From positions 1,922,001 through 1,986,000 of the forward strand of contig NZ_JBBMQM010000001.1 in the NCBI RefSeq assembly GCF_038900055.1: DNA of 64,000 nt, written 5' to 3'. The notes beneath the pieces are model-generated. The model saw only the letters and a list, made by a program, of their open reading frames with translations. It ran no database searches and was not told the DNA's origin. Shown here one piece after another: positions 8,263 to 26,369 of the stretch (the first letter of the stretch is position 1; each line of letters begins with the position of its first letter). Both the position numbers and the translations under genes were made by a program. The stretch is from Henriciella sp. AS95 (GTDB lineage Bacteria; Pseudomonadota; Alphaproteobacteria; Caulobacterales; Hyphomonadaceae).

Positions 8263-11200
8263 TCATGGCGTCGCGCCGGCAGAGGTCCTGGCGCTCCGCG
8301 CCTGTTCAAGCTCGCCATCCTGCTTTCGCCAGTCCTCGTAATTCTGGGCCTTCACATGACCATAGCCCCGAACGTGCTGGATCGCTTCGATCCGCCCCGT
8401 CCAGTGGTGCAGGGAGGTTTCGTCCAGGGACGCGATGGCGCGGTCCACGAGTGCTTCGAATTCAGGGATGAGCTGGCGTTCCAGCTTGCGGTCTTCCGTC
8501 CAGCCGAAGGGGTCGAAAGGCGTGCCACGCAGAAAGCTGAATTTGGCAAGTATCTTGAGGCAGGGCCGCATCCACGGTCCGAACTTGATCTTCTGAGGGT
8601 GGCCCGAGGGGCCGGACTTCCGCGCGATGACCGGCGGCGCCATATGGTAGGAGACCTTCGCCTTGGCTCCGTACTTTTCGCGCAGCCGTTGCTCGAATTC
8701 CGGTGATGTCAGAAGGCGGGCGACTTCATACTCGTCCTTGTAGGTGAGCAATTTGGCATAGCTGCTCGCAACAGCGTCCGCAAAGCCATTCGGCGTTCCG
8801 CTGACGTCAGCTTCAGCGGCTTCAGCGCGTTTAACCAGTTGCTCGAAACGTTCGGCCAGCTTTGAACCGCCATAGGACCGCACCTTCTCTGTCAGGAACT
8901 GGCGGGACGGCGACAAGGTCTGGGTCGGTTCGCCTGAGCCGCGCCTGCTGCCAGCAGCGATTATCTCGCTTCGGCCAAGCTGGAGCGCCGCGAGATTCTT
9001 GCTGACCGAAACGCCCAGTTCCTGGATCGCGGCCTCAATCGATTCAATTTTTACCGGCAGGTATCCAGACTGTGCGGCGGCGCCGAGCAGGATGAGATTC
9101 GCCGCATGCGGACCGCCGATCTTTTCCCGTGCCAGATCGTGTGCCGACAGGACCGCCAAGTCCCGCACACCGCCCGCCAGATAGGCCTGCACATCGCTCT
9201 CGGAGAACTGGAAATCCGGATCCAGCTGAAAGTGTGCAGTCGGTTCGGCATGTTCGTCAGCGATCGCAATCGTGTGATCCGGATTCAGCATTGGAAAGGC
9301 GAGATTTTGCGTCGCTGCGATCGGGTCGCAGGCGATCAGGACATCGGCTTCTCCTGCCTGAATTTGCGGGCTTTTGATCGGCTCGTCATTTCCGATCCGG
9401 ACATGGGTGACCACCGCTCCATTCTTCTGGGCAAGGCCGGTCATGTCGAAAGTGTGAGCCGTGCGGCCTTCGATCTTTGCGGCGCGGCTGATGATCTGTC
9501 CAAGGGTGACGATGCCCGTACCGCCGATGCCAGTAAGCAGGACATTCCAGGTTCTGCTGCTGTCACCGACAAATGCCGCTGGGGCTTTTATGTCGCCCGT
9601 CGTTGAAGGCGGGCTTTCAACCTGCTTGCCCTCGATGGATACGAAGGAGGGGCAGAAGCCCTCGACACAGGAAAAATCCTGATTGCAGCTTGCATGGTCG
9701 ATGCGGCGCTTCACACCGAGTGGCGTCTTCAGCGGCGCGATCGAGACGCAGTTCGATTTCTTCGAACAGTCTCCGCATCCCTCGCACACAGCTTCATTGA
9801 TCTCGACCTGTTCGGCGGGTGTTTCGAGCTGTCCCCGCTTCCGCATGCGGCGCTTCTCCGCGGCGCAAACCTGATCGAAAATCAGAACCGTGACGCCGGG
9901 GATTTGGGCCAGTTGTTTCTGGACGGTTTCGAATTCGGTTCGGGGATAGACCTTTACCTTGCCGGGCAAGGGCGTGCGATAGCGCTTCGGGAACTCCGCA
10001 ACGATGGCGACCTCGGCAACGCCCTCTGCCAGACACTGACTGGCAATGATCTCAGGCGACAACGCGCCGTCATGTTCCTGGCCGCCCGTCATCGCCACAG
10101 CGTCATTGAACAGAACCTTGTAGGTGATGTTCACCTTACCCGCCACTGCTTGCCGGATGGCGAGGGTGCCAGAGTGGAAATAGGTCCCATCACCAAGATT
10201 CTGGAAGATATGCTGGCGATTTGAGAACGGGGCCATGCCAACCCAGTTCGCCCCTTCGCCGCCCATCTGGGTGGGCGGAAGGGTTTTGCGGTCCATCCAC
10301 ATCGCCATGGTGTGACACCCAATTCCGGAGAGGGCGATCTCGCCGTCTTCGACCTTGGTCGACCGGTTATGGGGGCAGCCCGAACAGAAATAGGGCAGGC
10401 GAGAAATTGGGGCAGGCGCGTTAAGGAGCGCCGCAGGGCCCGGCTCATCAAGCGCTGATGCCCGAGGGGCTTCGATATCCCTGGCGCGCAATTTGGGAAG
10501 AATGGCGCCCGCAACGGTCCTGGCGTCCAGCGATTTTGCTGCCGGTAGCTGGTACTGGCCGCCGGACGTCATCTTTCCGCTTATCGCCGGACGCGGTTCG
10601 GGCAGGTCGTAGAGGGCCGCGCGGATCTGGTCTTCGATGAGGTTGCGCTTCTCTTCGACGATGATCAGTTCGTCGTAACCTTCGGCAAAACGCCGGGCCG
10701 CATCGGGATCAATCGGCCAGACGAGACCGATCTTGTAGATGCCAATCCCAAGGTCCGCGGCGCTTTCGGGATTGAGGCCGAGGAGATCAAGCGCATCCAG
10801 GACATCGCCATAGGCTTTGCCCGATGTGACGATGCCGATGCGTTTGTGCGCCGGGCGGGTGATGACCCGGTCGATCTCGTTTGCGCGGGCAAACTCATGG
10901 ATACGGGGTAGCCTGAACTCTTGAAGACGAGCATCAGCTGCCATCGGCTCGTAGCGCCATTGCACATTGACGCCTTCGGGCGGTGCCGGGGCAGGGTTGT
11001 TGGGGCGGTTTATCACGGGCGCCGACGGCAGCGGTGAAATCGTCGAGGCTTCCGCGAGCTCGTTCACGCATTTCAAGCCGATCCACAGCCCCGAATAACG
11101 GGACATCGCCCAGCCCTTCAGGCCGAACTCGATGATTTCAGGAATGGTCGAAGGGGCCAGGACGGGAATAGAAAAGGAGGCCAGCGTGTGATCGCTCTGG

Positions 11201-11628
11201 TGGGCCGTCGTCGATGACTTGCCCTGATGGTCGTCACCAGCAACGACAAGCACACCGCCATGTTCTGCTGCGCCAGCGAGGTTTCCGTGTCTCAGGGCAT
11301 CACCAGCGCGGTCGACACCCGGTCCCTTGCCATACCACATCGCGAAGACACCATCGAACCGATGTTCCTGGAGAACTTGCCCCTGTTGAGACCCCCAAAC
11401 TGCAGTGGCGGCGAGTTCTTCGTTCACACCAGGCTGAAAAACGATGCTGCGTTCAGCAAACTCAACTTGCTTGCGTTTGAACATCTGATCGAGCCCGCCG
11501 AGCGGCGAGCCTCTATAGCCGGAGATGAAGGCAGCCGTATTGAGGTTTGACGCCCGATCGAGATCGGATTGGAGGAGTGGAAGCAAGGCCAGAGCTTCGA
11601 GCCCGGAAAGGAGAGTACCATGCTGCAT
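8263..11628 (-). CDS. indolepyruvate ferredoxin oxidoreductase, fused type
   Basis: This large 1121-residue enzyme would oxidatively decarboxylate an aryl or branched 2-oxoacid to its acyl-CoA, passing electrons to ferredoxin. The order is an N-terminal pyrimidine-binding half (SGYRGSPLGGLDQ, VNEELAATAVWG), a TPP-binding half with FCSGCPHNRST and NLGDGTYFHSG, a cysteine cluster (CEGCGDCSKKSNC plus later cysteines) for Fe-S, and the gamma-type domain (LLTGIGGTGIVTLGQ). This is the fused, oxygen-tolerant form typical of Proteobacteria. It starts 2 bases after the reductase gene stop. Indole- or phenylpyruvate-like substrates are known for the family; here the substrate is unknown. Confidence 0.93.
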   Translation of the reverse strand: MQHGTLLSGLEALALLPLLQSDLDRASNLNTAAFISGYRGSPLGGLDQMFKRKQVEFAERSIVFQPGVNEELAATAVWGSQQGQVLQEHRFDGVFAMWYGKGPGVDRAGDALRHGNLAGAAEHGGVLVVAGDDHQGKSSTTAHQSDHTLASFSIPVLAPSTIPEIIEFGLKGWAMSRYSGLWIGLKCVNELAEASTISPLPSAPVINRPNNPAPAPPEGVNVQWRYEPMAADARLQEFRLPRIHEFARANEIDRVITRPAHKRIGIVTSGKAYGDVLDALDLLGLNPESAADLGIGIYKIGLVWPIDPDAARRFAEGYDELIIVEEKRNLIEDQIRAALYDLPEPRPAISGKMTSGGQYQLPAAKSLDARTVAGAILPKLRARDIEAPRASALDEPGPAALLNAPAPISRLPYFCSGCPHNRSTKVEDGEIALSGIGCHTMAMWMDRKTLPPTQMGGEGANWVGMAPFSNRQHIFQNLGDGTYFHSGTLAIRQAVAGKVNITYKVLFNDAVAMTGGQEHDGALSPEIIASQCLAEGVAEVAIVAEFPKRYRTPLPGKVKVYPRTEFETVQKQLAQIPGVTVLIFDQVCAAEKRRMRKRGQLETPAEQVEINEAVCEGCGDCSKKSNCVSIAPLKTPLGVKRRIDHASCNQDFSCVEGFCPSFVSIEGKQVESPPSTTGDIKAPAAFVGDSSRTWNVLLTGIGGTGIVTLGQIISRAAKIEGRTAHTFDMTGLAQKNGAVVTHVRIGNDEPIKSPQIQAGEADVLIACDPIAATQNLAFPMLNPDHTIAIADEHAEPTAHFQLDPDFQFSESDVQAYLAGGVRDLAVLSAHDLAREKIGGPHAANLILLGAAAQSGYLPVKIESIEAAIQELGVSVSKNLAALQLGRSEIIAAGSRRGSGEPTQTLSPSRQFLTEKVRSYGGSKLAERFEQLVKRAEAAEADVSGTPNGFADAVASSYAKLLTYKDEYEVARLLTSPEFEQRLREKYGAKAKVSYHMAPPVIARKSGPSGHPQKIKFGPWMRPCLKILAKFSFLRGTPFDPFGWTEDRKLERQLIPEFEALVDRAIASLDETSLHHWTGRIEAIQHVRGYGHVKAQNYEDWRKQDGELEQARSARTSAGATP

Positions 11629-11630: not shown

Positions 11631-12647
11631 CTAATTGACCTCGACCAGAACTTTGCCTTGCGCCCGGCCGGCAATCACATCGGCGAGCGCTTGCGGGGCT
11701 TTTTCGAACCCCTTTCGGATATCTTCCCGGGCGGTCAGTTCGCCTTCACGCCACCAGGCCGCCAGGCGCGAAAGGGCCTCGGGAACCTTGTCTTCGAAGT
11801 CACGGATGAGGAATCCTCTCAGCATTGCCCGCTTTACAAGGATCGTTCTTAGATGCCTTGGTCCGGTGTCGGGCCGATCTGGATTTGCGTAGAAATCCAT
11901 CGTTCCAAAGACGACGACCCGGGCGTGCAAGGCGAGATGGCTCATGGCAGCATCGTGAATTGTTCCGCCAACGGAATCGAAGAAGACATTGATGCCATCC
12001 GGAGCAGCCTGCTGGATCGCGGATTCCACATCGTCCGTCTTGTAGTTGATGGTCGCGTCGGCGCCGATTGACGTCACGAAGCGACATTTCTCGGGGCTGC
12101 CCGCGACGCCGATGACCCTACAGCCAAGCTTCTTTGCGATCTGGACGACGAGTGCGCCCACAGCGCCCGATGCAGCCGTAACAAGAACCGTATCGCCCGG
12201 TTGAGGCTGTCCAATCTCAGTCAAGGCCAGATAGGCGGACAGTCCGGATGAGCCGAGAACCCCCAGACTTGCCGAGATAGGCCAGGGACCGGTCTCAACG
12301 GCCCTGAGCTCATTGGCGTTGACCACGGCTTGCTCTCGCCAGCCGAGCCAGTGTTCAACGATGTCTCCAGATTTGAATTGCTCAGATCGCGATGCGACGA
12401 CTTCGCTGAGTGCTCGACCGGTCATGACTTCACCGGGGTGGACAGCTGCGGCGTAACTTGATCTGTCCATGAGGCGCCCGCGAAGCAGGGGCTCGATTGA
12501 CAAATAGCGTGCCTTGACCAGGACTTCCCCGTCCTGAAGTTCGGGCAAGTCGACTTTCGCAAGCTCGAAGTGATCGGCCCGCACATCGGCTGCGGGACGG
12601 CTGACAAGCTTCCATGCCAGACAATCGGTTTGTGTGACCGTGCTCAT
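11631..12647 (-). CDS. NADP-dependent medium-chain reductase, CurA/prostaglandin-reductase-like
   Basis: This 338-residue soluble reductase lacks the catalytic zinc ligands of alcohol dehydrogenases and has the nucleotide-binding segment TAASGAVGALVVQIAKKLGC plus YKTDD and FDSVGG. The family (CurA, leukotriene B4 dehydrogenase) reduces the C=C bond of enones. I use the ATG at 12647 because AAAGGCGGG precedes it; the ATG 24 bases upstream has no such site. It is the first gene of the minus-strand catabolic operon, directly behind the paired-repeat operator at 12666-12693. Confidence 0.9.
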   Translation of the reverse strand: MSTVTQTDCLAWKLVSRPAADVRADHFELAKVDLPELQDGEVLVKARYLSIEPLLRGRLMDRSSYAAAVHPGEVMTGRALSEVVASRSEQFKSGDIVEHWLGWREQAVVNANELRAVETGPWPISASLGVLGSSGLSAYLALTEIGQPQPGDTVLVTAASGAVGALVVQIAKKLGCRVIGVAGSPEKCRFVTSIGADATINYKTDDVESAIQQAAPDGINVFFDSVGGTIHDAAMSHLALHARVVVFGTMDFYANPDRPDTGPRHLRTILVKRAMLRGFLIRDFEDKVPEALSRLAAWWREGELTAREDIRKGFEKAPQALADVIAGRAQGKVLVEVN

Positions 12648-12665
12648 AACCCGCCTTTTCAGTAA

Positions 12666-12693
12666 TTGCATGCAACTTGACTAGTGCATGCAA
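12666..12693. promoter_or_regulatory. paired ATGCA operator in the divergent catabolic promoter region
   Basis: A perfect palindrome TTGCATGCAA (12666-12675) is followed by TGCATGCA (12685-12692), centres 18 bp apart. It lies about 20 bases upstream of the reductase operon. The same paired motif occurs before the TonB receptor, the FAD hydroxylase and the sulfatase, and once before the GntR gene, so I infer a GntR binding site. Confidence 0.6.
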
Positions 12694-12932
12694 TAATGCT
12701 GTGTCAACTCGAACATCAGGCAGTTGGAGAGGGCGGTCGGGTTTGGCCACGACAAAAGCAGTGACCCAGAATCATGTGTCCAGGGTGAGAGCCTGCTCAG
12801 CCCTGGCAGGCCTGCTCCAGGGCCACGATTACCATTGCTTTTCAAGGGGCTGAGAGGTCGCCGCTCAGCAATTGAGATAAGCGTCGCCGCTGTACTCAGG
12901 GGTGATGCACTTAACGTGAAGGGAAGAATAAA

Positions 12933-13367
12933 ATGGATGAGATGCAGCGCGCTTTGATCGAAAAGCAGTGTGAAAGGCTGTCGATCAGATTTGCAAATTA
13001 TGTCGACCAGGGGCGGGCTGAGGACGTTGCGACTCTGTTTTCGGACGATGGTTCGTTTTCCCGGGCTGGCCAGGTTCTCGATGGCCCTGACCAGCTGCGC
13101 GCGTTTCTGGAAAAGCGTCCGCCCGAACGCGTCACCCGTCATGTTTGTACAAATATCGACGTGAACCTGGTGAGCCCGAATGAAGCGACTGGGGTCACCT
13201 ATTTTCTGCTGTTTGAAGGAAGCCGGGCGGCTGATTCCGAGGGGCCGCTGCCTCTCATGTCTCCAGCTGCCCTCGGGGAGTACCACGACACTTTCGTGCT
13301 CACTCCGCAGGGCTGGCGCATCAAAGAACGATCCGCCCAAGCCGTCTTTCGTCAAGTGGAGGGCTAA
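12933..13367 (+). CDS. SnoaL-like (NTF2 fold) protein
   Basis: This 144-residue protein has an NTF2-like cone fold pattern: IRFANYVDQGRAEDVATLFSDDGSF near the start, then GPDQLRAFLEKRP and a C-terminal strand EYHDTFVLTPQGWRIKERS. Family members include small dehydratases, isomerases and ring-hydroxylation-associated proteins, so a role on an aromatic or cyclic intermediate is plausible. AAGGGAAG lies ahead of the ATG. It is 2 bases upstream of the fumarylacetoacetase-family gene and divergent from the reductase operon. Confidence 0.82.
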   Translation: MDEMQRALIEKQCERLSIRFANYVDQGRAEDVATLFSDDGSFSRAGQVLDGPDQLRAFLEKRPPERVTRHVCTNIDVNLVSPNEATGVTYFLLFEGSRAADSEGPLPLMSPAALGEYHDTFVLTPQGWRIKERSAQAVFRQVEG

Positions 13368-13369
13368 TC

Positions 13370-14215
13370 ATGAAAATCGTCAAATTCTCTTTCCAGAACC
13401 TGTTCGGTGAAGGTGTCGTCGAAGGTGACCAGGTTCGCGTCGCGCATCTGTCTGAGGTTCCAGATGCGCTCCAGGCGCCATTCACCCTGTCATCCAGAAC
13501 AGAAACTGAAATCAACGATCTACTCGCGGGGGCTGGCAGAAGCATACCTTTGAGCGAGGTCGACCTGCTTCCGCCAATTCATCCTGCGTCGAAGCTGATT
13601 TGCCTTGGTTTCAACTACAAGACTCATGTCGAGGAAACGCACTCGGACATGGGTGAGGCACCGGCTCTTTTTGCCAGATGGCAAGACTCGATCGTGGGCG
13701 ACGGCTCAGATGTCCTGCTTCCGCCCGAGTCGGACACGTTCGACTTTGAGGGTGAAATTGCGGTCGTGATCGGCAAGGGAGGGCGCCGGATATCGCCCGA
13801 CAGCGCTGCAGGTCATGTCTTTGGCTACACATGCTTTTTCGATGGCAGTATCAGGGCGTTTCAGATGCATTCCCCAACGGCGGGAAAGAACTTTCCCAAG
13901 TCTGGCAGTCTCGGCCCCTGGATCATGACGGCCGACGAAGCGGGCGATCCCGCCGCGTTCGGTCTTGAGACTTACGTCGCCGGCGAGCAGATGCAATCCA
14001 CGCGTGGAGACCTCATGATTTTCGGCGTTGCGGATGTCATCTCCTATGTTTCTCAATTCACGAACCTGTCGCCGGGGGACGTGATCGCGACGGGAACGCC
14101 AGGAGGTGTCGGTGCGAAACGGACGCCTCCGCGTTGGCTGAAGCCAGGTGAAGAGGTGGAGATCAGGATCTCCCCGATTGGAAGCCTGAAGAACACAGTT
14201 GCCCTGGAAGCCTGA
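13370..14215 (+). CDS. fumarylacetoacetate hydrolase-family protein
   Basis: This 281-residue protein has the FAH C-terminal fold: LICLGFNYKTHVEE, the metal-binding FDFEGEIAVVIG (two Glu of the E-x-E motif plus a later Asp), GKNFPKSGSLGPWIMT and GDVIATGTPGGVG. Relatives cleave C-C bonds in, or isomerise or decarboxylate, oxo-acids produced by ring cleavage. The usual GYT..ND.S..D stretch reads GYTCFFDGSIRAFQ here, so substrate choice may differ. GGAGG precedes the ATG, and it forms a two-gene unit with the SnoaL-like gene. Confidence 0.9.
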   Translation: MKIVKFSFQNLFGEGVVEGDQVRVAHLSEVPDALQAPFTLSSRTETEINDLLAGAGRSIPLSEVDLLPPIHPASKLICLGFNYKTHVEETHSDMGEAPALFARWQDSIVGDGSDVLLPPESDTFDFEGEIAVVIGKGGRRISPDSAAGHVFGYTCFFDGSIRAFQMHSPTAGKNFPKSGSLGPWIMTADEAGDPAAFGLETYVAGEQMQSTRGDLMIFGVADVISYVSQFTNLSPGDVIATGTPGGVGAKRTPPRWLKPGEEVEIRISPIGSLKNTVALEA

Positions 14216-14588
14216 CCCGTGAAACGGGATATGAGAGATTTACTCATCGTTTGTGTCGCGGCCGGCTGGCATTGCTGCCTCCATGGTCGCGACCAAGCTT
14301 GGCCCAGTCCACACGGTTGTTGAGCGCCGAAGCGGGGTGCATCGCTACCCCCCCCCAGCCCCATGTCATAAAGGCAAGAGCTCATACCACCGTTGCTAAG
14401 GATCTCGCTGAAAAGCTCCGTGCTCACCTTCGTTTCGGGACGTCATGAGTTCTCATCGGTAATCCCTGCTGCCGCCAGATCTGGCAAATAAGGGCGCGAA
14501 TCCGGGGTGGTCGTGGCTCTTCTCTGATGCGCCCTGAGGGCGATTTCTGAACGGGCACACTGTGTACAAAACAGCACAAAGACCGACA
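14216..14588. other. intergenic stretch before the TonB receptor promoter
   Basis: About 370 bases with no supported gene. It contains a run of nine C (14348-14356). Open frames here on the minus strand overlap the hydrolase gene and resemble no known protein. Its right end leads into the receptor promoter. Confidence 0.5.
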
Positions 14589-14618
14589 TTGACATGCAAA
14601 ATACGTAAATGTATGCAA
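14589..14618 (+). promoter_or_regulatory. sigma70-type promoter overlapped by the paired ATGCAA operator (TonB receptor)
   Basis: TTGACA (14589-14594) and TATGCA (14612-14617) are separated by 17 bases. The two ATGCAA copies (14594-14599 and 14613-14618) sit on the two promoter boxes, 19 bp apart. A repressor bound there would block RNA polymerase directly. The receptor start lies about 110 bases downstream. Confidence 0.55.
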
Positions 14619-14725
14619 TGTTGCGTTTGCACGCATAAGAATGGCGATTTTCAGCACGGGCTCTCAAGAAAGCCCGCACGAAACGACGTGCATAGCCAAG
14701 CAATTGTGCATAGGGAGGAAACAAC

Positions 14726-16933
14726 TTGCTTAAAATAAAATCGGGATACTGTGCTGCCACTTCACTGGTGACGGCCCTGGTGGCTCTTGTGCCGGCGTCT
14801 GCGTACGCGCAGGACGCTAGCGCTGAAGATGCGAACGACCAATCGAAAAGGTTGGGGACTGTTACGGTGACGGCGCAGAAAAGAGAAGAATCGAGCCAGG
14901 ACGTGCCCGTGGCGCTGACGGCTTTCTCTGGCGACATGGCAGAAGAAGCAAACATCGTCGCCGTGGAAGATCTGGCACGTTTCACGCCCGGCCTGAATAT
15001 CGTTCAGTCAGATGCCGCAAGGACGCGCATCCGGATCAGGGGCGTTGGCAGCCAGAAGTTCGACATCGGATCGGATCCGTCCGTGGGCGTCTTTATTGAC
15101 GAAGTCTACATTCCCCGGTTCAGCGGCGCCGAATTCGCATTGCTCGATGTTGAACGTATCGAAGTTCTAAAGGGACCTCAGGGCACTCTTTTCGGCCGGA
15201 ATACCCCTGGTGGTGCCATAAGCGTCATTACAAAAGACCCGTCAGACACGTTCGAGGGATTTGTTGAGGCGGGGATCGGCAACAAGGATAGCTATTCCTT
15301 CAAGGGACGAGTTGCGGGACCGCTCAGCGACACAGTCAGCGCCAGTCTGAACTATGGTGAGGAGACGGAGGGCGGCTATGTCAAAAACGACCTCACCGGC
15401 AACACGAATGACGAGACATCGCGGGCAGCGATCGCGAAACTCAAATTCGAACCCGACAGCACGCTCTCGATCACGGCCAGCCTCCAGTACACAGACATCG
15501 AAGCTGACGCCATCCTGGCCGGTAGCGAGGCAACGCTTCCGAACTCCCAGGCTTTGCCGTTATTCCTGTTTCCGCCGGGCTCTACAGTCACGGTCAATGA
15601 TGATCCGTTTCTCGCGACGGCGAACCTAGATGGTGGCCTCAACATTAAATCAATCATGCCGATACTCAGAATCGAGAAGGATTTCGGCGACCTGACATTG
15701 ACCTCGATCTCTGCCTACAGGGACAGCGAATTCGATGCCATTGAGGACTTTGACAGAACATCCGCTGATGTTGGCCGGACGGCTATCGAGGAAGAATCGA
15801 CCACCTTCTCGCAAGAGCTTCGCGTTTCGAACGCAAACTTCATTGCGGGCCTATTCTTCTATAATGATGATGCATCACGGTCGGATGGTTTCAACTGGTA
15901 TAGTGCGTCGGTTCCATACGCTCTGGCGGGGGGCAACATTGCAAGGGATTCGGCGATTGTTGACCTCGAGACAGAGAGTTGGGCGATATTCGGCCAGTAT
16001 GAATTCAATCTCACTGACCGCCTCAGCCTGACACTTGGCGGTCGGTACACTGAGGACACGAAGAATTACACCCTCGCGGCGGAGTCGAATGCTCCGGGTG
16101 TCCCACCGGTAGCCGTGCCTTATGAGACGACTGGCGAGCTGACCTTTGACAGTTTTGATCCCAAGGCGTCGCTCGAGTTCAACCCGACCGAAAATGTGTT
16201 GCTTTATGCAAGCTATAATCAGGGCTTCAAGAGCGGCGGCGTGCAGTTCACGGCGTTCCGCGAAGCGCTTGCAGATCTCGTCTTCGAGCCGGAAGACATT
16301 GACGCCTACGAAATTGGCGTGAAGGCGGACCTGCTCAACAAGACCCTCCGCGTGAACTCCGCAGCCTACCAGTATGATTATGCAAATTTGCAGCTGCAGC
16401 GGGTTGAAGTGGTCGATGGAAGTCCATCTTCGGTCACCCGCAACGCAGCCGAGGCAGAGATCAAAGGGCTCGAACTGGACGTCACCTGGCTCCCGACGGA
16501 CGAGTTGCTGCTGCGCGCCGGCTACAACTACCTCGATGCCACGTTCCAGGATTTTGTTCTGCCTCTGACCGGTGACGACCTGAGCGGGAATACGATGCCG
16601 AACAGCCCGGAACACACATTGTCTGCGACGATCGACTATCAGAAGCAGTTGAACAATTTGTGGACCCTGGGTCTCGGCGCAGACTGGTTCTGGTCAAGCG
16701 AACAGAACCATGACGTCTTTGATGATGATCCTGTCACACAGCAGGATGCCTACAATACCGGACAGCTCAGAATGTCGCTGACGTCGCCAAATGAGGGGAT
16801 GCGGATATCGGTCTTTGCCGACAATGTGACGGACGAAACCTTCCCCCGAATCCTTCTTCGCCGCCAGACGGAAGTTCTGACGAATTATTCTGATGGTATT
16901 CGTTACGGGGCAAAGGTGCGGTTCAGCTTCTAG
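14726..16933 (+). CDS. TonB-dependent outer-membrane receptor
   Basis: This 735-residue receptor starts at a TTG preceded by GGAGG. It has a signal peptide ending near AYAQ-D, a TonB box-like stretch (TVTVTAQKREES), a plug domain (about 60-170, RIRIRGVGSQKFDIGSDPSVG, LKGPQGTLFGRNTPGGAI) and a 22-strand-type barrel ending in the aromatic-terminated KVRFSF. This subtype is common in sphingomonads and Caulobacterales for uptake of aromatic and other organic compounds. It stands alone between a regulated promoter and a terminator, so it is probably the island's uptake porin. Confidence 0.95.
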   Translation: MLKIKSGYCAATSLVTALVALVPASAYAQDASAEDANDQSKRLGTVTVTAQKREESSQDVPVALTAFSGDMAEEANIVAVEDLARFTPGLNIVQSDAARTRIRIRGVGSQKFDIGSDPSVGVFIDEVYIPRFSGAEFALLDVERIEVLKGPQGTLFGRNTPGGAISVITKDPSDTFEGFVEAGIGNKDSYSFKGRVAGPLSDTVSASLNYGEETEGGYVKNDLTGNTNDETSRAAIAKLKFEPDSTLSITASLQYTDIEADAILAGSEATLPNSQALPLFLFPPGSTVTVNDDPFLATANLDGGLNIKSIMPILRIEKDFGDLTLTSISAYRDSEFDAIEDFDRTSADVGRTAIEEESTTFSQELRVSNANFIAGLFFYNDDASRSDGFNWYSASVPYALAGGNIARDSAIVDLETESWAIFGQYEFNLTDRLSLTLGGRYTEDTKNYTLAAESNAPGVPPVAVPYETTGELTFDSFDPKASLEFNPTENVLLYASYNQGFKSGGVQFTAFREALADLVFEPEDIDAYEIGVKADLLNKTLRVNSAAYQYDYANLQLQRVEVVDGSPSSVTRNAAEAEIKGLELDVTWLPTDELLLRAGYNYLDATFQDFVLPLTGDDLSGNTMPNSPEHTLSATIDYQKQLNNLWTLGLGADWFWSSEQNHDVFDDDPVTQQDAYNTGQLRMSLTSPNEGMRISVFADNVTDETFPRILLRRQTEVLTNYSDGIRYGAKVRFSF

Positions 16934-16956
16934 TTCCTCCCGCGTCTTGTTGGACT

Positions 16957-16994
16957 GGCCGCGCTCACGAACCGTGCAGCGCGGCCGCTTTTTT
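16957..16994 (+). terminator. rho-independent terminator after the TonB receptor
   Basis: GGCCGCGC (16957-16964) pairs with GCGCGGCC (16979-16986) across a 14-base loop and is followed by a run of six T (16989-16994). Confidence 0.85.
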
Positions 16995-17099
16995 GGGACG
17001 CGATCTCACGCTAGCTCAGCTTTCGTCGAGATGGCAGGGCTGGTCGGCGGTTGTGCCTCCGGCGAAACGGCAAAGGGCGAATGCCTGGAGGGAGGGGAC

Positions 17100-17696
17100 A
17101 TGTCAGACAACGAACAGCTTGACAGGGTCAGGATAGGTCATCTCATCCTCCAGGAACGCGTTGCGCGCGATACTGGCAGGTGGGATCAGATGCGGGCGTG
17201 CTATTCGGGCAACTCCACTATCGATATTTCCTGGTTCAGGGGAAGCGGTTTCGATTTTGTCGACGTCTCCCGCGAGGCGGCGGACAGCGGCAGCGCTTCA
17301 TTCCACAAAATGGAGCCCTGCCTTGTTGATATCAAAGGTGATCGCGCGAATGTTAATGTTGGCGTAGCCATTCACCTGCGGACTTTGATGAACAATGTGG
17401 AGGTGCTGCTCATCGGCCACGGACGCATGCTTTTTCGCGTCGAGCGACGTGCTTCAAATTGGCTCATCAATCATCTGACGGGCATTTATGTCATGGATAC
17501 ACTGCAGCCCGCCGTCCCGGGAGAGGCAGTGAGTGTCGATCGCGAGCGCCTCGCAACCTATCGCGCTTCATATCGATATCTCTCCTACCTGCTGGAATTG
17601 TCTGGCCGGCCGGTAAGCCAGGACCTGCCCGGCGTGGACAGGCCCGACAGCGTTGACGCCATCCTGACGGCAAATACTGATTGGCTAAATCAGTGA
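17100..17696 (+). CDS. SnoaL-like (NTF2 fold) protein, second copy
   Basis: This 198-residue protein has an N-terminal NTF2-type pattern (RIGHLILQERVARDTGRWDQM, CYSGNSTIDISWFRG) and the strand-rich middle CLVDIKGDRANVNVGVAIHL of bile-acid-dehydratase/SnoaL-like proteins. The ATG at 17100 follows GGAGGGAGGGG; the open frame extends further upstream, into the receptor gene, but has no site there. It has a C-terminal extension of about 60 residues. Function unknown, probably in the same pathway. Confidence 0.8.
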   Translation: MSDNEQLDRVRIGHLILQERVARDTGRWDQMRACYSGNSTIDISWFRGSGFDFVDVSREAADSGSASFHKMEPCLVDIKGDRANVNVGVAIHLRTLMNNVEVLLIGHGRMLFRVERRASNWLINHLTGIYVMDTLQPAVPGEAVSVDRERLATYRASYRYLSYLLELSGRPVSQDLPGVDRPDSVDAILTANTDWLNQ

Positions 17697-17758
17697 TCTA
17701 ATGGAGGAGGCAGCGCGCTCACTATTGAGCCGCAAGAAATCGGAACGAGTTCTGGTGA

Positions 17759-18490
17759 TCAGTCTTTGACAAGTCGCAGGAATGGATAGCGCTCGATTTC
17801 TTCAGAGTTCTCCTGAAGCGATGTGAGAACGCGTTCGAGGTTTTGACGCGCATTGTGGATATGCTGCTTCAGGGCGTTTTCTGCCCGGACAGAGTCGCGC
17901 GCAACAATCGCCTCGTAGACCCATTTATGGTCCTGCTGGGCGCGTTCGATCACGGCTCGAATTGATTGGAAGTCGCGGGTCGTTGCCGCGATGGATTTGG
18001 CCGCGGCGAGCGGAATGGATTCGAATTTCTGCATCATTTCACAAAGCACTTCATTGTCCGCCGCCTTGATGATGGCATTGTGAAACTTTCCGTTGATGTC
18101 GGCGAACATCAGGGCATCTGAATAGTCGAGCTCTTCTTTCAGCAGGAGGCCATCAACCTGAAGAAGATACCCCTTCAGGTCCGAGTTCATTTCACGCGAA
18201 ATGCCATTATGAGCTGCCAGCCGGGCTGCCATGCCTTCGAGTGTTTCGCGAACGTCAACAGCAACCATAATATGCTTGATCGAAAAACGCCGGACGACGA
18301 AGCCGCGATTTGGCGTGTATTCGAGCAGGCCCTCATTTGCCAGTTCGGTGAGGGCGAGCTTCACTGGCGTCCGGGATGTGTCGAGCCTCTCGGCGATATG
18401 CTTCTCTTGCATACGTTGACCAGCCTCGAACTCGCCCGTCATGAGCAGTTCGCGCAGTTTGGTGACAATATATTCGGTTTGAGTGGCCAC
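17759..18490 (-). CDS. GntR-family transcriptional regulator (FadR subfamily, FCD domain)
   Basis: This protein of about 243 residues has an N-terminal winged helix (RTPVKLALTELANEGLLEY as recognition part) and a C-terminal all-helical FCD ligand domain (about 95-230) with the usual Asp/His metal ligands (FADINGKFHNAII, HKWVYEAIVARD, LKQHIHNARQNL). I choose the GTG at 18490, preceded by AGGGA; an earlier ATG gives an unlikely Cys-rich leader. A single TTGCATGCA site lies 61-69 bases upstream of this start, suggesting autoregulation. It is the natural candidate to read the paired ATGCA operators. Confidence 0.9.
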   Translation of the reverse strand: MATQTEYIVTKLRELLMTGEFEAGQRMQEKHIAERLDTSRTPVKLALTELANEGLLEYTPNRGFVVRRFSIKHIMVAVDVRETLEGMAARLAAHNGISREMNSDLKGYLLQVDGLLLKEELDYSDALMFADINGKFHNAIIKAADNEVLCEMMQKFESIPLAAAKSIAATTRDFQSIRAVIERAQQDHKWVYEAIVARDSVRAENALKQHIHNARQNLERVLTSLQENSEEIERYPFLRLVKD

Positions 18491-18550
18491 GGAACATCCC
18501 TGTGTTTTACACTCATTGTAGTTTAGACGCGTTTGTCGGAATCGACAAGA

Positions 18551-18559
18551 TTGCATGCA
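18551..18559. promoter_or_regulatory. single ATGCA operator upstream of the GntR gene
   Basis: TTGCATGCA has the same core as the paired operators at 12666, 14594, 18783 and 20690. It lies in the upstream region of the regulator gene. Confidence 0.45.
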
Positions 18560-18781
18560 CCTGCAGCTCAATCGACTTCAAATTGGCCGGCCATCCTGTG
18601 TTTGCACAATGACTGGCGGACCACTGCAGCCTGCCCAACCATCACGCTCTACCCTGGTCTGTAGTGCGCTTGAAGAATCCGAGGTTTTCTCCAGCTCGGC
18701 GCAGTTCCATTATCACGCTTCCAGTTCATGGGTGCGACAGAAATGACCATGCGTACTGACAGATTCATGGTTGCCAACAAG

Positions 18782-18807
18782 CATGCAATAATACAAAAAG
18801 TATGCAC
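18782..18807. promoter_or_regulatory. paired ATGCA operator before the FAD hydroxylase
   Basis: CATGCAA (18782-18788) and TATGCA (18801-18806) are 19 bp apart. The segment between is A-rich (ATACAAAAAG). The hydroxylase start is about 60 bases downstream. The flanking region 18560-18781 holds no supported gene. Confidence 0.55.
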
Positions 18808-18864
18808 AAATTCGGTTTTATTTTCCGAGACAGATGAAATTCACAAGGAAGAGGAGCGGCGGCC

Positions 18865-20613
18865 ATGAGGGAATTCCCGGTAACAATCGTAGGGGGCGGG
18901 CCTTCCGGGCTTCTGGCGTCCGCGCTGCTGACTCGTCATGGCATCGAGCACCTCGTGGTTGAGGCCCGCCAAGGGCTCCACAGGGCGCCGCAGGCGCATG
19001 TGCTGAACACCCGCTCTTTGGAAATATTTCGGCAAATTGGCGTGGATACCCGAATTCTGGACGCCGCGACGGTGGTGGAGAAGCAGCGCTACATCACCTA
19101 CTTCGATCAGCTCAAGGGGCTGAGCTACGGGGCTCTGGACATCGGTGCGCGGCGGAGCGGGCAGGATTTCCTGGAATCGCTAAGCCCGACGCGCGCAGCA
19201 AACCTGCCGCAGGACCAGCTCGAGGAGATCCTCTTCGAGAAAGCCCAACAGAGCGAGGTCGCTACCATCCGTTTTGGCACGCGATGCACCGGCCACGCGC
19301 AAACGTCTGACGGGGTGATCGTCGATCTGTCGGATGAGAACGGACAGGACTATCAGGTTCGCTCAGACTATCTGATCAGCGCTGAAGGTGCTGGCAGCGG
19401 CACGCGGCGCCGAATGGGAATTGAAATGGAGGGGCCTGTCGGCATTGCTCATTTCATCACCGTCTATTTCAAAAGCGACCTTGCCGGGCTGTTGAAGGGC
19501 AGGGAAGGGGTGGTGCACTGGTGCCTGAACCTGAAGACCCCAGGAATACTGGTCGTGCACGATGACAAGGAACGCTCGGTTCTGATGATCCAGTACAATC
19601 CCGAGACCCATTCCCCAGAAGATTTCACTGAAGCAGTGTGCGCCGACTATCTGCGCAACATTATTGGAGACGAGTCGCATCCGTTTGAAATCAAAAGCCT
19701 CGATACCTGGGTGATGAATGCGCAGGTCGCCAAGTCCTATGGCGAAGGACGTGTTTTTCTCGTTGGTGACGCCGCTCACCGTTTCCCGCCAACAGGTGGT
19801 CTGGGGCTGAATACCGGCGCCCAGGACGTGTACAATTTTATCTGGAAACTGAGAGAAGTCCTGAGCGGCAATGCCGAAGCCAGCCTGCTTGAGACCTATG
19901 AAACCGAGTGCCGCCCGATGGCCTTGGTGAACTGCCAACACAGCCTGACGAATATGCTGAGGGGGGTAGAGGTGCCAAATGCCATCGGCCTTGGAGAAGA
20001 TGCGGATTTATCGGAGACGAATATCGCCATCCTGAGACAAGGCGGTCAAGCTGCGGCCGAAAGGCAAGCGACGATTCAGGAAGCAATCGAAGGGCAGTTG
20101 CCGCACTATGTGTCCTACGGACTGGATCTCGGGAGCGTGTATGAGGCGGGCGCCCTGGTGCGCGATGGCGAGGCGATCGTCGATGCGGCGGAAAACCCGG
20201 TCGAGTACCGGCCGAATGCTCAGCCCGGAGCCCGGTTCCCCCATTTCTGGGTGAAGCATGGCGGTGTTCGCAAGTCAGTGCACGACCTGTTGTCCTATGA
20301 TGGGTTCACGATGATTGTCGGGCCGGACGGTAGCGCATGGAAATCGCTGCTCGCTGAGCTCGATGAGTGTTCCTTCGGCATCAACCTTGTGGAAATTGGA
20401 CCGCAACAAGCGGTTCAGAACGAGGATGATGCGCTAGCTCGCCTTTGCGGAATAGCCGGCGACGGCGCCATACTGGTGCGTCCGGATGGCCATGTCGCCT
20501 GGCGTGAAAAGTCACTCCCCGCCAATCCCAAGGCCAGTCTTGAGCAGGCGATCGCTGCTGCGTTTCCGACAAAGTTGCGCTGGCGTGATGATGTCCCGGC
20601 GGGCGCTCACTGA
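18865..20613 (+). CDS. FAD-dependent aromatic hydroxylase (PheA/TfdB/MhpA type)
   Basis: This 582-residue group A flavoprotein monooxygenase hydroxylates an aromatic ring using NAD(P)H and O2. It has the FAD motif IVGGGPSGLLASALL near the N-terminus, the second FAD motif VFLVGDAAHRFPPTGGLGLN (about residues 295-315) and a C-terminal thioredoxin-like domain typical of phenol/2,4-dichlorophenol and 3-hydroxyphenylpropionate hydroxylases. GAGGAG lies ahead of the ATG. It would prepare a catechol-like intermediate for the VOC enzymes nearby. Confidence 0.92.
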   Translation: MREFPVTIVGGGPSGLLASALLTRHGIEHLVVEARQGLHRAPQAHVLNTRSLEIFRQIGVDTRILDAATVVEKQRYITYFDQLKGLSYGALDIGARRSGQDFLESLSPTRAANLPQDQLEEILFEKAQQSEVATIRFGTRCTGHAQTSDGVIVDLSDENGQDYQVRSDYLISAEGAGSGTRRRMGIEMEGPVGIAHFITVYFKSDLAGLLKGREGVVHWCLNLKTPGILVVHDDKERSVLMIQYNPETHSPEDFTEAVCADYLRNIIGDESHPFEIKSLDTWVMNAQVAKSYGEGRVFLVGDAAHRFPPTGGLGLNTGAQDVYNFIWKLREVLSGNAEASLLETYETECRPMALVNCQHSLTNMLRGVEVPNAIGLGEDADLSETNIAILRQGGQAAAERQATIQEAIEGQLPHYVSYGLDLGSVYEAGALVRDGEAIVDAAENPVEYRPNAQPGARFPHFWVKHGGVRKSVHDLLSYDGFTMIVGPDGSAWKSLLAELDECSFGINLVEIGPQQAVQNEDDALARLCGIAGDGAILVRPDGHVAWREKSLPANPKASLEQAIAAAFPTKLRWRDDVPAGAH

Positions 20614-20688
20614 ACGGCCTGACGTATCGTACGGCGCGGGTGAAAATCTGTTCCCGGGCCTTGCGGTGGAGACAATAGAGCTTAAAAG

Positions 20689-20728
20689 CATGCAAAGTAT
20701 AAAAAGCATGCTTTATGGTTCGGCATGC
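20689..20728. promoter_or_regulatory. paired ATGCA operator before the sulfatase
   Basis: ATGCAA (20690-20695) and GCATGC (20706-20711) are 18 bp apart, with a third GCATGC at 20723-20728. They fill the gap between the hydroxylase and sulfatase genes, so the sulfatase unit probably has its own regulated promoter. Confidence 0.5.
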
Positions 20729-20764
20729 GAATGAGCTGGGTGCGCCAGCCAGGAGGAAGCATAG

Positions 20765-22348
20765 GTGTTCGAGATGATCATGGACCGATTTCTTGTCGCA
20801 GGCAGACGTGTTGCTCTGACCGGCATTTGCGCCCTTGTGTCGGCTTGCATGCCGGCCCAGGGCACTGAGCAAGAGGCGGCAGTCGTCGAGGCGGGCAGTC
20901 GGCAGCCGAACATCATTGTTATTCTCGCCGATGACCTTGGCTTCAATGATATTTCGCTCAACGGGAATCCGCTTGTTCGAACCCCGAACATAGATCGGCT
21001 CGCGACGTCGGGTATCCGCTTCAGTCACGCCTATTCGGCAAATGCCGTCTGCGCCCCGTCCAGGGCGGCGCTTCTGACCGGACGACACCAGCAGGCCTTC
21101 GGTTTTGAGTTCAACCCAATCATTCCTCCGTACATTGAATCGCTGCCTGCAACGCAGGCGGACGTTACTGAGACCGGGCCCGAACACACTGGAACGTCCA
21201 AGGATCAGTATCCGCCCATGAGCGAGATCGGCATTCCGGATTCCGAGCTAACGATCGCACAGCGCCTGAAGGCGGCAGGATATTCTACGGCTCATATTGG
21301 CAAATGGCACCTGGGCAGCGCGCCGGGCAAGCGGCCTGCGGATAAAGGCTTCGACAGGGTCTACGGTTTCCTCGCTGGAGCAGCGCTTTTTGCGCCGGCT
21401 GACAGGGACGGAATCGTCAACGCCCATCTCGAGGACCCTTTCGATGCGATGGTCTGGGCGAACGTGACGAACGCGATTAGTGACGATGGTGAAATCATCC
21501 ATCCGGACAGGCATCTCACGGATGCCTTCGCAGATGAGGCCGTCGAATTCATCAGCGAGAACAGGGAAGACCCGTTTCTGCTCTATCTCGCCTTTAATGC
21601 GCCGCATAACCCGCTGCAGGCGCGGCAGGACTATTACGACCGCCTGTCCTTCATCAAGGACCACAAGACGCGCGTCTACTATGCGATGGTCGAACAGCTC
21701 GACGACGCGATCGGACGGGTCCTGGACGCCGTCGATGAGGCCGGCCTGTCGGAGGACACGCTGATCATCTTTGCCAGCGACAATGGCGGTGCGTCCTACA
21801 CCGGTATTCCAGTTCATAATCTGCCTTATCGCGGCTGGAAGGCGACCTTCTTCGAGGGCGGTATCGTTGTACCGATGCATGCCTACTGGCCGGGACACAT
21901 TCAGCCCGGTCAACTGGTGACAGATCCCGTCAGCCTGCTCGATATCGCGCCGACCATTCTGGAAGCAGCAGGTCTGCCAATACCCGAGACGTTCGATGGC
22001 CAAAGCCTTATCGGTGCGGATGCAGTCTCCAGCGATCCATCAGTGAGCCGGCCATTCTTCTGGCGCGCCGAGCACTACAGGGTCGTGCGCGACGGGAAAT
22101 ACAAGCTCCAGATATCTGAATTCCCCGAAAAAACTTGGTTGTTCGATCTGGAGAAGGATCCCGGCGAGCACGTGAATATTGCCGACGCCCATCCTGACAT
22201 TGTGAGCCGCCTGAAAGACGAGCTTTCGTCTTGGGAGGCCACACTCGCCGAGCCGATCTGGCCGGCAATGGAGCGGCGGCGGGAGTTTCTGGATGGGTAC
22301 CAGGACCCTGAAGTTCCGGACCAGGAATACATCTATTATCCGCTGTGA
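20765..22348 (+). CDS. type I sulfatase, predicted lipoprotein
   Basis: This 527-residue enzyme hydrolyses a sulfate ester. The signature CAPSRAALLTG (Cys96) is where the formylglycine nucleophile is made by a sulfatase-maturing enzyme, which is not in this window. Metal ligands are seen in ILADDLGFND (about 54-62) and FASDNGG. The N-terminus has a hydrophobic stretch and a lipobox-like VSAC, so the enzyme may be exported and lipid-anchored. The GTG start at 20765 follows AGGAGG by 8 bases. Its place between an aromatic hydroxylase and a VOC gene suggests an aryl or similar organic sulfate. Confidence 0.92.
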   Translation: MFEMIMDRFLVAGRRVALTGICALVSACMPAQGTEQEAAVVEAGSRQPNIIVILADDLGFNDISLNGNPLVRTPNIDRLATSGIRFSHAYSANAVCAPSRAALLTGRHQQAFGFEFNPIIPPYIESLPATQADVTETGPEHTGTSKDQYPPMSEIGIPDSELTIAQRLKAAGYSTAHIGKWHLGSAPGKRPADKGFDRVYGFLAGAALFAPADRDGIVNAHLEDPFDAMVWANVTNAISDDGEIIHPDRHLTDAFADEAVEFISENREDPFLLYLAFNAPHNPLQARQDYYDRLSFIKDHKTRVYYAMVEQLDDAIGRVLDAVDEAGLSEDTLIIFASDNGGASYTGIPVHNLPYRGWKATFFEGGIVVPMHAYWPGHIQPGQLVTDPVSLLDIAPTILEAAGLPIPETFDGQSLIGADAVSSDPSVSRPFFWRAEHYRVVRDGKYKLQISEFPEKTWLFDLEKDPGEHVNIADAHPDIVSRLKDELSSWEATLAEPIWPAMERRREFLDGYQDPEVPDQEYIYYPL

Positions 22349-22414
22349 CCGGCAGGGCCGGACGCGCGCGGGTGACTGAAATGCCGACTGGCGATCAATA
22401 TGAGAGGAGCCAAA

Positions 22415-23074
22415 ATGGAAACGAAGCTGCAGTACAAGCGCTCGCGCGAAGCCAGCGACCGCATTCGCCCCGCCTCACTGGCGCACATCGTTCTGCGCAC
22501 CGGCCAGCACCAGAAAATGGTGGGCTGGTATGAGCATGTTCTCAACGCGGAGATCGTCTATTCCAACGATCATCTGACGTTCCTCACCTATGATGACGAG
22601 CACCACCGGATCGCAATCGCGAAGCTTCCTGTGACCGGGCGCCGGGACAAGAGCCGCGCAGGCGTCGATCACATCGCTTTTACCTATGAGTCCCTCCCAT
22701 TGCTCCTGGAGAACTGGAGTCGGCTGCAAGAGGACGGGATTGAGCCGATATGGTGCATCAATCATGGGCCGACGACGTCCATGTATTATCAGGATCCTGA
22801 CGGCAACGTGCTTGAGCTGCAGGTCGAGAATTTCGAATCAGACAGTGAAGTCGATGAGTGGATGAGCTCTTCGGATTTCGACATCAATCCGATTGGCGTT
22901 GATTTTGATCCGGCCGAAATGAAGCGCAAGTTCGATTCCGGGGTTCCGGTCGAGGAGCTGAAGGTCAGACCCAGGATCGGTAAACGGAGCGCCAGCACAG
23001 TTCCAACGCCTTATATCGGCAAGTTTGCCGCCACGATGACACGTGTCGCGAAACTGCTCGGCAAGGACGTTTAG
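22415..23074 (+). CDS. VOC-family protein (extradiol dioxygenase-like)
   Basis: This 219-residue protein has a VOC module with ligands in LAHIVLRTGQH (His), VDHIAFTYE (His) and VLELQVENF (Glu), the pattern of iron-dependent ring-cleavage enzymes. A C-terminal region of about 80 residues follows (SDFDINPIGVDFDPAEMKRKF). GAGGAG precedes the ATG at 22415. It is 66 bases after the sulfatase and 42 bases before the ligase, so likely co-transcribed. Confidence 0.85.
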   Translation: METKLQYKRSREASDRIRPASLAHIVLRTGQHQKMVGWYEHVLNAEIVYSNDHLTFLTYDDEHHRIAIAKLPVTGRRDKSRAGVDHIAFTYESLPLLLENWSRLQEDGIEPIWCINHGPTTSMYYQDPDGNVLELQVENFESDSEVDEWMSSSDFDINPIGVDFDPAEMKRKFDSGVPVEELKVRPRIGKRSASTVPTPYIGKFAATMTRVAKLLGKDV

Positions 23075-23116
23075 TCCATCCTGCCACTCAGGCTGACCCA
23101 GGAGTCCTCTTCAAGC

Positions 23117-25082: not shown

Positions 25083-26369
25083 TTAGCTCAAACTGAATGT
25101 GGTCTTTATCCAGACGCGATCGGTCTCGGCGTATTGTCCGAAGATGCCATCCGCCTCTCCCCAAACGAGGTCGAGGCCAGCATCGAGCCGCACTTTATCT
25201 GTTGCGCGCCATGAGATGGACGGACGAAACGTACCATCACCTTCGTTGAGCGACGCCAGTAACTCTGCGCCAAGACGAAGGGTATCATTCGACAGCGTCT
25301 TCTGCAGTTTGAGCGTCGCGACGACATCGGTAGAGGGGCGCACAAGGTCAGGTCCCGTGATGTGGTCCACGCCCAGCTGTGCATTGGCGAAAAGGCCGTC
25401 CGGCAGGTCCCAGTCGACACCCAGTCCAACAAGCCACCGTTGCCTGTCATCCGTCGTCGGCGTTGCAGACTGCAGATTGACCGGTTGGTCGGAAATGGAT
25501 GCTGCTTCAAGGCGCCAGACCCGCGGCCCGCTCGAGCGTTGCCATGTCGCGCCGACAAGTGTGCGGGAGTCATATTCAAGCGCGACGCCTGTGGTCGATG
25601 CCCGGAAAACCGGCTCCGTGTCTGGCCCATGGATGATGAGAAAGGACGCGTCATTTGCGCCGAACCTTCTCGATGCCTTCACGCCGAGCGTGGGCTCGTC
25701 CGAAAGTTTGACGTGGAGGTCTGGAAGTGAAGCCGCCGCCGGCAGCCCGGCGCGATAGCGCGGTGCCCGAACCGCATACGTATCTCCAGGTATGGCGAAC
25801 TGATCGGCCGTCCCATCCAGGACGCCAGCTATATCCCACCGCGTGCCGGCGTGTTTGAACTGCGCCCGCGCGCCCCAGCGAGACATACGGTCGGGTCTCT
25901 GATCAATGAAAACAGCCTCCCGCCGCCGGACCGCATCGAACCGGTCAGTGACCTGCAAGCCATCAAGAACGCCCCATGCGAGAGTCTGTTTGCCGAGCGT
26001 CACGCGGGTTGATCGTTTGCGCCAGCTGAGCGTCGCCTGATCGATCTCGATGCGCGTGCTGTCTCCAAGTTCGAGAGGATGTGACGCTTCATCATAGGTT
26101 TGCAGACTACCAAGACCGACCATCGCATGAGCACTTTCGAGGCGCAGGGAAAGGTCGCCTCGCCAGCCTGATGAGAGATCAATCTCGAAGTCCGGACGAA
26201 TGTCCAGACGCAGCCTGTTCGCCTCGTCATTTCCAATCGAAATGGCCGCGAACTGATTGGTTTCGACAGATGTTTCGACCTTCCCTGGCTCCGCCATAGA
26301 GGCTCCTGCGGAAAGGACTGAAATGGCCGTGACCAGGATGCCGCGAGGACACCGGTCACCCATCAACAT
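25083..26369 (-). CDS. outer-membrane beta-barrel protein (DUF1302-like)
   Basis: This 428-residue protein has a signal peptide ending near ASMA-E and many alternating amphipathic strands, ending in KTTFSLS with a C-terminal aromatic pattern. Sequences such as VTLGKQTLAWGVLDG resemble DUF1302-type barrels, which occur with MMPL/RND exporters and a LolA/DUF1329-like protein. It overlaps the LolA-like gene by 14 bases. The probable role is the outer-membrane part of a lipid or lipophile export route; family assignment is tentative. Confidence 0.75.
   Translation of the reverse strand: MLMGDRCPRGILVTAISVLSAGASMAEPGKVETSVETNQFAAISIGNDEANRLRLDIRPDFEIDLSSGWRGDLSLRLESAHAMVGLGSLQTYDEASHPLELGDSTRIEIDQATLSWRKRSTRVTLGKQTLAWGVLDGLQVTDRFDAVRRREAVFIDQRPDRMSRWGARAQFKHAGTRWDIAGVLDGTADQFAIPGDTYAVRAPRYRAGLPAAASLPDLHVKLSDEPTLGVKASRRFGANDASFLIIHGPDTEPVFRASTTGVALEYDSRTLVGATWQRSSGPRVWRLEAASISDQPVNLQSATPTTDDRQRWLVGLGVDWDLPDGLFANAQLGVDHITGPDLVRPSTDVVATLKLQKTLSNDTLRLGAELLASLNEGDGTFRPSISWRATDKVRLDAGLDLVWGEADGIFGQYAETDRVWIKTTFSLS

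Follow-up and report, generated by a model that had tools for sequence, protein, structure and literature searches.

Paired TGYATRCA palindromes as probable operators of the resident FCD-type GntR regulator in a catabolic island of Henriciella sp. AS95

Introduction

Which protein reads a short palindromic word that recurs ahead of the operons of a catabolic island in Henriciella sp. AS95? The island lies in the 64,000-nucleotide stretch analysed here (assembly GCF_038900055.1, contig NZ_JBBMQM010000001.1, positions 1,922,001 to 1,986,000; hereafter the window) and spans about 6.3-24.7 kb of it, as delimited from the list of open reading frames (ORFs) and domain scans. It holds a gntR gene, the product of which carries an FCD domain and is close to Atu1419 of the VanR group. 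Our answer is that the sites are very probably operators of this GntR, which would repress the operons of its own island until a ligand binds. The sites, their conservation and the association of protein and motif across bacteria were computed here; from these and from known relatives we infer binding, repression over activation, the ligand and the substrate.

Results

Relatives of the regulator were taken as the best 80 of 471 loci in a scan of genome contigs with a five-member alignment (A1); they had 32-39% identity and gave 73 non-redundant upstream regions of 370 bp. An earlier protein search for close relatives in genome and viral contigs had confirmed none, and the later scan with A1 succeeded. 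In a k-mer search of the upstream regions, in which no motif was named, the top enriched 8-mers were TGCATACA (35/73, 0.44 expected) and TGCATGCA (32/73, 0.48 expected), followed by GTATGCAA (31/73, with 0.4-0.5 expected from the same loci). Exact TGYATRCA stood upstream of 56 of the 73 relatives, compared with 4 of 59 other FCD-GntR genes (Fisher P = 7e-17, a value that is too small because the test set itself served to fix the Y/R form and because close relatives, many of them Burkholderiaceae, are not independent). Two of the four positive controls were found among 29 FCD-GntR genes from relatives of the window genome (30 less L158, which is cut by a contig end) and two among 30 FCD genes in four genomes with test members; no control lay inside a test locus. 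In a tree, the motif was present across deep branches including Ferrovibrio, Bordetella, Verticiella, a gammaproteobacterial and a deltaproteobacterial metagenome-assembled genome, and the window itself, the branch of which is long and unsure in its exact placement. The motif hence accompanies GntR relatives in Alpha-, Beta-, Gamma- and Deltaproteobacteria. Moreover, the plasmid homologues L044, L045 and L046 (35-39% identity), which later became members of A1, carry TTGCATGCAA ahead of gntR or of the operon next to it, with ring-hydroxylating dioxygenase genes nearby in two and a sulfatase gene in one. Since the motif follows relatives of the protein and is rare before other FCD GntR genes, the island GntR is favoured as the binder.

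To avoid circularity, the matrix that ranked sites in the window drew only on GntR relatives (109 distinct upstream sites). Exact TGYATRCA occurs four times in the 64 kb (12667, 12685, 14610 and 18552), each time in an island promoter, and these four sites took ranks 1-4; its TGCATGCA form is the word of relatives and window alike. Altogether, 8 of the 20 top window positions were island sites. The initial annotation had described TGCATGCA-type sites paired 18-19 bp apart before the reductase operon, the TonB receptor, the FAD hydroxylase and the sulfatase, with a single copy before gntR, and sequence reading and scans confirm these sites. Ahead of the reductase operon, TTGCATGCAA and GTGCATGCAA form a pair at 12666-12693 (cores at 12667 and 12685, 18 bp apart; ranks 3 and 2), 19-46 bases ahead of the likely reductase start and about 240 ahead of the divergent SnoaL gene. 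The reductase ORF as listed begins within the first operator site, and the ATG with its first base at 12647 (minus strand) is the likelier start. The receptor is preceded by a triplet at 14590-14636, which consists of TGACATGCAA (14590), ATGTATGCAA (14609) and TTGCACGCAT (14627), with eight-base cores at 14591, 14610 and, for the third copy, 14628 (spacings 19 and 18 bp; ranks 42, 1 and 7). The single site TTGCATGCAC (18551-18560, rank 4) lies 61-70 bases ahead of the gntR start and presumably serves autoregulation. At the hydroxylase, AAGCATGCAA and AAGTATGCAC occupy 18779-18807 (cores at 18780 and 18799, 19 bp apart; ranks 13 and 19), and at the sulfatase AAGCATGCAA and AAGCATGCTT are followed by a weak third copy, GGCATGCG, within 20686-20730 (cores at 20687, 20705 and 20722, spaced by 18 and then 17 bp; ranks 6, 46 and 108).

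Among 105 family genomes, the window's own included, one close orthologue of the regulator was found (98%, same genus, genome G012), and its island aligns to the window in five blocks of 88-93% identity. We compared the intergenic columns 12647-12932, 14440-14725, 18491-18864 and 20614-20764, with gaps counted as differences. Core columns (11 sites of eight bases) were identical in 84 of 88 cases, compared with 755 of 1034 (73%) for the other columns (Fisher P = 1.6e-7). Cores were unchanged before the reductase (16/16), the receptor (24/24) and gntR (8/8); at the receptor, the sequence that separates the unchanged sites has diverged. The hydroxylase cores were identical at 15/16 bases, the differing one (18799) giving GCATGC for GTATGC; the first two sulfatase cores also matched at 15/16, with the differing base (20705) nearer to the consensus, and the third copy matched at 6/8 and is further away from it. 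Two of the four core differences (18799 and 20705) thus bring G012 nearer to the consensus; the remaining two fall in the weak copy at 20722 and make it poorer. The conservation on which the initial annotation had let its proposal depend is therefore seen in the one close orthologous island. As a further control, sulfatase homologues (n = 10, 42-46% identity, from nine genomes plus the second G012 copy) had a one-mismatch site in 1/10 and an exact site in 0/10 of their 450-bp upstream regions; this control is weak, because homologues at such identity are paralogues and the window's own sulfatase site is also a one-mismatch site.

The G012 island holds genes that are missing from the window island: an FAD monooxygenase gene accompanied by one of the CMD family, a gene for the sulfatase-maturing FGE, and a glutathione transferase gene. 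Upstream of the last, about 41 bases from its likely start, TTGCATGCAA and a weaker TTGCACTCAA stand with a spacing of 19 bp, and this gene is probably a further target with the same operator architecture, as judged from its upstream letters. Relics that align to the FAD monooxygenase and CMD-family genes, which are full-length in G012 (L047:12194-14414), are visible at 14217-14446 of the window, where most of both has been lost. The FGE gene adjoins gntR in G012 (L047:18731-19687), and the only PF03781 match of the window genome (C1:3170416-3171279) is 1.2 Mb from the island. After the CoA ligase gene, G012 has a LysR-like ORF, so named by eye (L047/L048 joined, 26848-27717), at a place where the window has a different cluster.

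The initial annotation had let its proposal depend on the motif being rarer in the rest of the genome, and genome-wide pattern counts show that it is not equally common elsewhere. The pattern GCATRYN{11,13}GCATRY occurs at 23 distinct places in 3.87 Mb, five of them in this 8-kb stretch, for which about 0.04 is predicted from the density of the other 18; the pattern was shaped by the island sites, and the count is descriptive only. Stop-to-stop frames of at least 150 codons cover 17 of the 18 non-island places, but on the other strand such frames cover three of the five in the island as well. The sole non-island pair outside a long frame (L003) precedes a sugar-transferase-like ORF (by eye) and was set aside as it looks like chance. 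Pairs in the window were also scored against 20 block shuffles, whose three highest best-pair scores were 20.6, 19.4 and 16.1. Scores of 33.7 for the reductase pair and of 25.6 for receptor copies 14610/14628 exceed the best pair of every shuffle. Outside the island, a pair at 38809 scored 16.4, fourth among pairs and above those of the hydroxylase and sulfatase. This pair (38809/38827) was rejected as an operator, being an inverted repeat GCATCCAA...TTGGATGC of a more hairpin-like kind; the stretch 38808-38836 as a whole reads CTGCATCCAA...TTGGATGCAT, an inverted repeat that looks like a hairpin.

The regulator itself (17759-18490, minus strand, GTG start) has 243 amino acids, with matches to the winged helix PF00392 (56.3 bits, cut-off 27) and to the FCD domain PF07729 (62.3 bits, cut-off 24.3), and it falls short of the PhnR family TIGR03338 (92.0 bits against a curated cut-off of 271.5). 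Its nearest solved chain is 6z74 (profile E 1.1e-60), which we take to be Atu1419, in keeping with the residue numbering of the Atu1419 paper. By analogy with this closest solved chain, the GntR would belong to the VanR group, with six C-terminal helices rather than the seven of FadR. Atu1419 of Agrobacterium fabrum is reported to repress hydroxycinnamate catabolism genes and itself through 10-bp palindromes and to be released by an effector (PMC7797058). The short palindromes of the window resemble the 10-bp one of Atu1419, in which G at position 3 is essential. Four DNA contacts named for Atu1419 (Arg31, Glu34, Arg45 and Thr46) have their counterparts in R26, E29, R40 and T41 of the window protein, and its four zinc ligands (Asn137, His141, His192 and His214) in N133, H137, H188 and H210, all invariant in A1 (PMC7797058). 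The two systems differ in that the operator of Atu1419 is ATGTATACAT, its sites are 109-190 bp apart and methylenetetrahydrofolate is its proposed effector (PMC7797058); exact TGTATACA, which represents the Atu1419-type operator, is missing from the 64-kb window.

The recognition helix also differs, with SRTPVKLAL in the window GntR and SRTPVREAL in Atu1419. Within the 73 relatives, all 45 with an SRTP-x-R-L-A/S-L helix have TGYATRCA upstream; for other helices the counts are 5/8 (L with final F), 3/6 (I), 1/11 (A), 1/2 (Q) and 1/1 (Y), in a helix set that is not a random sample because the first peptide pattern of the scan required L or I. The A type (SRTP-x-R-A-A-L) lacks the word in 10/11 and has GGTATACC in 9/11, a weak link, since these are fairly close relatives and other words are equally enriched. 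Outside the 73, the plasmid homologues L218 and L219 are of A type and L220 is of Y type, all three without the word. In a marine branch (Marinobacter, Halomonas and Marinomonas; SRTPVR-L/I-AF), TGYATRCA is missing in 5/5, TGGATCCA is present in 5/5 and TTGGATCCAA in 4/5. The final F is not decisive, because five other helices ending in AF carry TGYATRCA. Nor is TGGATCCA confined to the marine branch, being present in seven other members, six of them with TGYATRCA as well. Palindromes of the TGGATCCA kind stand upstream of gntR in L115, L121, L123, L125 and L127, from the marine gammaproteobacterial sister branch, and TTGGATCCAA is found twice (L028:1374 and 1414) in a genome from the window's order. 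In controls the helix was readable in 38/59, with E at that place in 36, Q in one and D in one; all four word-bearing controls have E, so that E does not exclude the word. These counts suggest that residues of the helix help to set the inner operator bases.

The remaining island genes fit around these sites as follows. The minus-strand operon starts with a zinc-type reductase (ADH_N_2, 11631-12647), for which curcumin reductase was the best NCBIfam match at a score under that family's cut-off, and continues with a 1121-amino-acid protein with a POR domain, a VOC protein and an MFS transporter (6342-11628). Divergent from it on the plus strand, genes for a SnoaL-like protein and an FAA hydrolase (12933-14215) possibly share the reductase operator pair. 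The TonB-dependent receptor and a further SnoaL-like protein (14726-17696), the FAD-dependent aromatic hydroxylase (FAD_binding_3 with Rng_hyd_C, 18865-20613) and the sulfatase, VOC protein and acyl-CoA ligase (20765-24706) are all on the plus strand; the last three genes have short gaps between them and probably form a single operon. These enzyme types lead us to propose a sulphated aromatic compound as the substrate, which the island would import and break down. No regulator besides GntR was found among the island proteins scanned for domains. Past the island, a minus-strand cluster (25083-29560) holds a 428-amino-acid protein without a Pfam match, a LolA-like/DUF1329 protein and an 803-amino-acid ORF.

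Discussion

By homology to Atu1419, each 10-bp palindrome (consensus TTGYATRCAA) would take one dimer of winged-helix domains, and over the promoter region a pair 18-19 bp apart would hold either two dimers abreast or a single tetramer bound to both sites. Ligand-free GntR would then repress all four operons (reductase, receptor, hydroxylase and sulfatase) and, by way of the single site, its own gene. Release would come from a pathway compound that binds in the FCD pocket, where the metal sits, and would induce uptake, desulphation and ring oxidation of a sulphated aromatic substrate together. Repression is favoured since Atu1419 represses and is released by its effector. That two sites mean two dimers, as proposed initially, is plausible; the nearest solved relative, Atu1419, is a tetramer.

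The GntR may instead act as a DNA-looping tetramer between promoters, for example between 18552 and 18780, 228 bp apart, or as an activator, and not as two dimers that block one promoter; we consider this unlikely. Atu1419 is described as a dimer of dimers that looped DNA between palindromes 190 bp apart (PMC7797058). Ms0535 of Mycobacterium smegmatis, a FadR/VanR-like GntR, was footprinted on CCTTGCATGCATTCTTGCATGCAAGG, which is two TGCATGCA copies, with two-step binding suggested; it is reported to activate a permease gene and its own expression (PMC4609117). The reductase site at 12666-12693 likewise has two exact TGCATGCA copies, but 18 bp apart against 12 in Ms0535 (PMC4609117). NanR of E. 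coli, also an FCD GntR and a distant match (E 7e-7 for 6on4), is reported to place three dimers on a repeated operator, which differs in being (GGTATA)3 (PMC8012715). Against looping or activation, the 18-19 bp spacing is kept at all four pairs in window and G012 and points to mainly side-by-side binding.

Spacing varies among relatives. Of 74 site pairs within 60 bp (at least one site exact; many pairs from near relatives), 22 are at 21 bp, 11 at 52-53 and 4 at 42, 8 overlap at 4 bp, four each are at 32 and 59, and spacings of 18, 19, 20 and 22 occur once each. In G038, from the window's family, ATGCATGCAT occurs twice 20 bp apart (L049:6421 and 6441) near a TonB receptor start, and also near an ORF resembling FAA hydrolase (by eye) if a later ATG is its start. 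From these counts, pairing at 18-19 bp seems to be a local variation.

Binding by another regulator, with gntR as a mere neighbour, is improbable. In its favour, similar sites precede a second TonB receptor, 0.88 Mb away in the same genome: of the 12 places at which WTGYATGCAW is found, two lie ahead of this receptor, two fall in the island and eight are covered by open frames. There (C1:2822064-2822128, L173:10064-10128), TTGCATGCAT and TTGCATGCAA lie 55 bp apart before a gene that is TonB-receptor-like by eye, and a large secreted-enzyme-like ORF and a DeoR-like regulator, both also by eye, are close. Against it stand the passage of the motif with GntR relatives through four proteobacterial classes and the lack of a second regulator among the island proteins scanned. 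The initial annotation had named this GntR as binder by inference, and the k-mer and control association, the site conservation in G012 and the Ms0535 footprint now support that choice well.

Even less probable is that the repeats are -35 and -10 elements of duplicated promoters. A distance of 18-19 bp resembles promoter spacing, and at the receptor TTGACA (14589-14594) and TATGCA (14612-14617) do have 17 bases between them, as had been pointed out initially; but the claimed overlap with a promoter lacks support, because a sigma-70 scan called no promoter at the receptor sites. Moreover, the words are palindromes, relatives have them at different distances from one another, their occurrence tracks the regulator, and in G012 the receptor spacer has diverged and the sites have not. 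Chance can be dismissed, although the hydroxylase, sulfatase and one receptor pair lie within shuffle range, given that all four exact words of 64 kb are in island promoters, that cores are conserved at 84/88 against 755/1034 and that relatives and controls differ as 56/73 and 4/59.

Several findings weigh against operators of the island's own GntR. Conservation rests on a single orthologous island, hence on one comparison. The seven island sites other than the exact ones are weaker by the matrix (ranks 6, 7, 13, 19, 42, 46 and 108, several with low scores), and three pairs fail to beat the 20 block shuffles, with scores of 19.3 (receptor, 14591/14610), 13.4 (hydroxylase) and 11.2 (sulfatase); these pairs rest on position and conservation. 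The sites at C1:2822064 and 2822119 match the motif with no known link to the island GntR. TGYATRCA is missing upstream of 17/73 relatives and in the homologues of G110 (35%) and G124 (32%); L218, L219 and L220, three of six plasmid homologues examined, have no exact copy within 460 bp upstream of gntR, and in G038 it occurs elsewhere in the island and not directly upstream of gntR. Relatives favour 21 bp over the 18-19 bp of the window. Two other DNA contacts of Atu1419, Arg49 and Gly66, are K44 and N61 here (PMC7797058). Ms0535 is reported to activate, and the sign of regulation could differ (PMC4609117).

A wider reading, that the GntR belongs to a widespread undescribed FCD branch in which helix and operator change together, with the island showing a distinct close off-phase pair at 18-19 bp (about 1.75 turns), is possible and somewhat doubtful. 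The AF-helix exceptions lower its odds, and the code is not simple. FCD GntRs of Cupriavidus and Caballeronia, beside genes of ring-hydroxylating dioxygenases or the glutamine-synthetase family, resemble the window protein (35-37% identity, TGYATRCA upstream, helix SRTPVRLAL) and differ in sites mostly 21 bp apart and in other enzymes; a search of the open literature found no experimental study of them. No paper on this GntR branch or its operator was found in the open literature, most subscription journals lying outside its scope. Tandem TGCATGCA operators under a GntR (Ms0535) and an FCD repressor of aromatic catabolism (Atu1419) are already in print, and the island very probably has an ordinary switch that had not been described before.

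What began as a guess from raw sequence is thus now a defined regulon of a catabolic island, and its operator can be tested. For many unnamed GntR regulators, some of them near oxygenase or sulfatase genes, the word also offers a candidate operator and could be used to predict their targets. If the close 18-19 bp pair is truly a distinct arrangement, it implies a different contact between dimers; and the partial link between helix and operator, if it holds, would make it easier to predict the specificity of FCD GntR proteins from their sequences.

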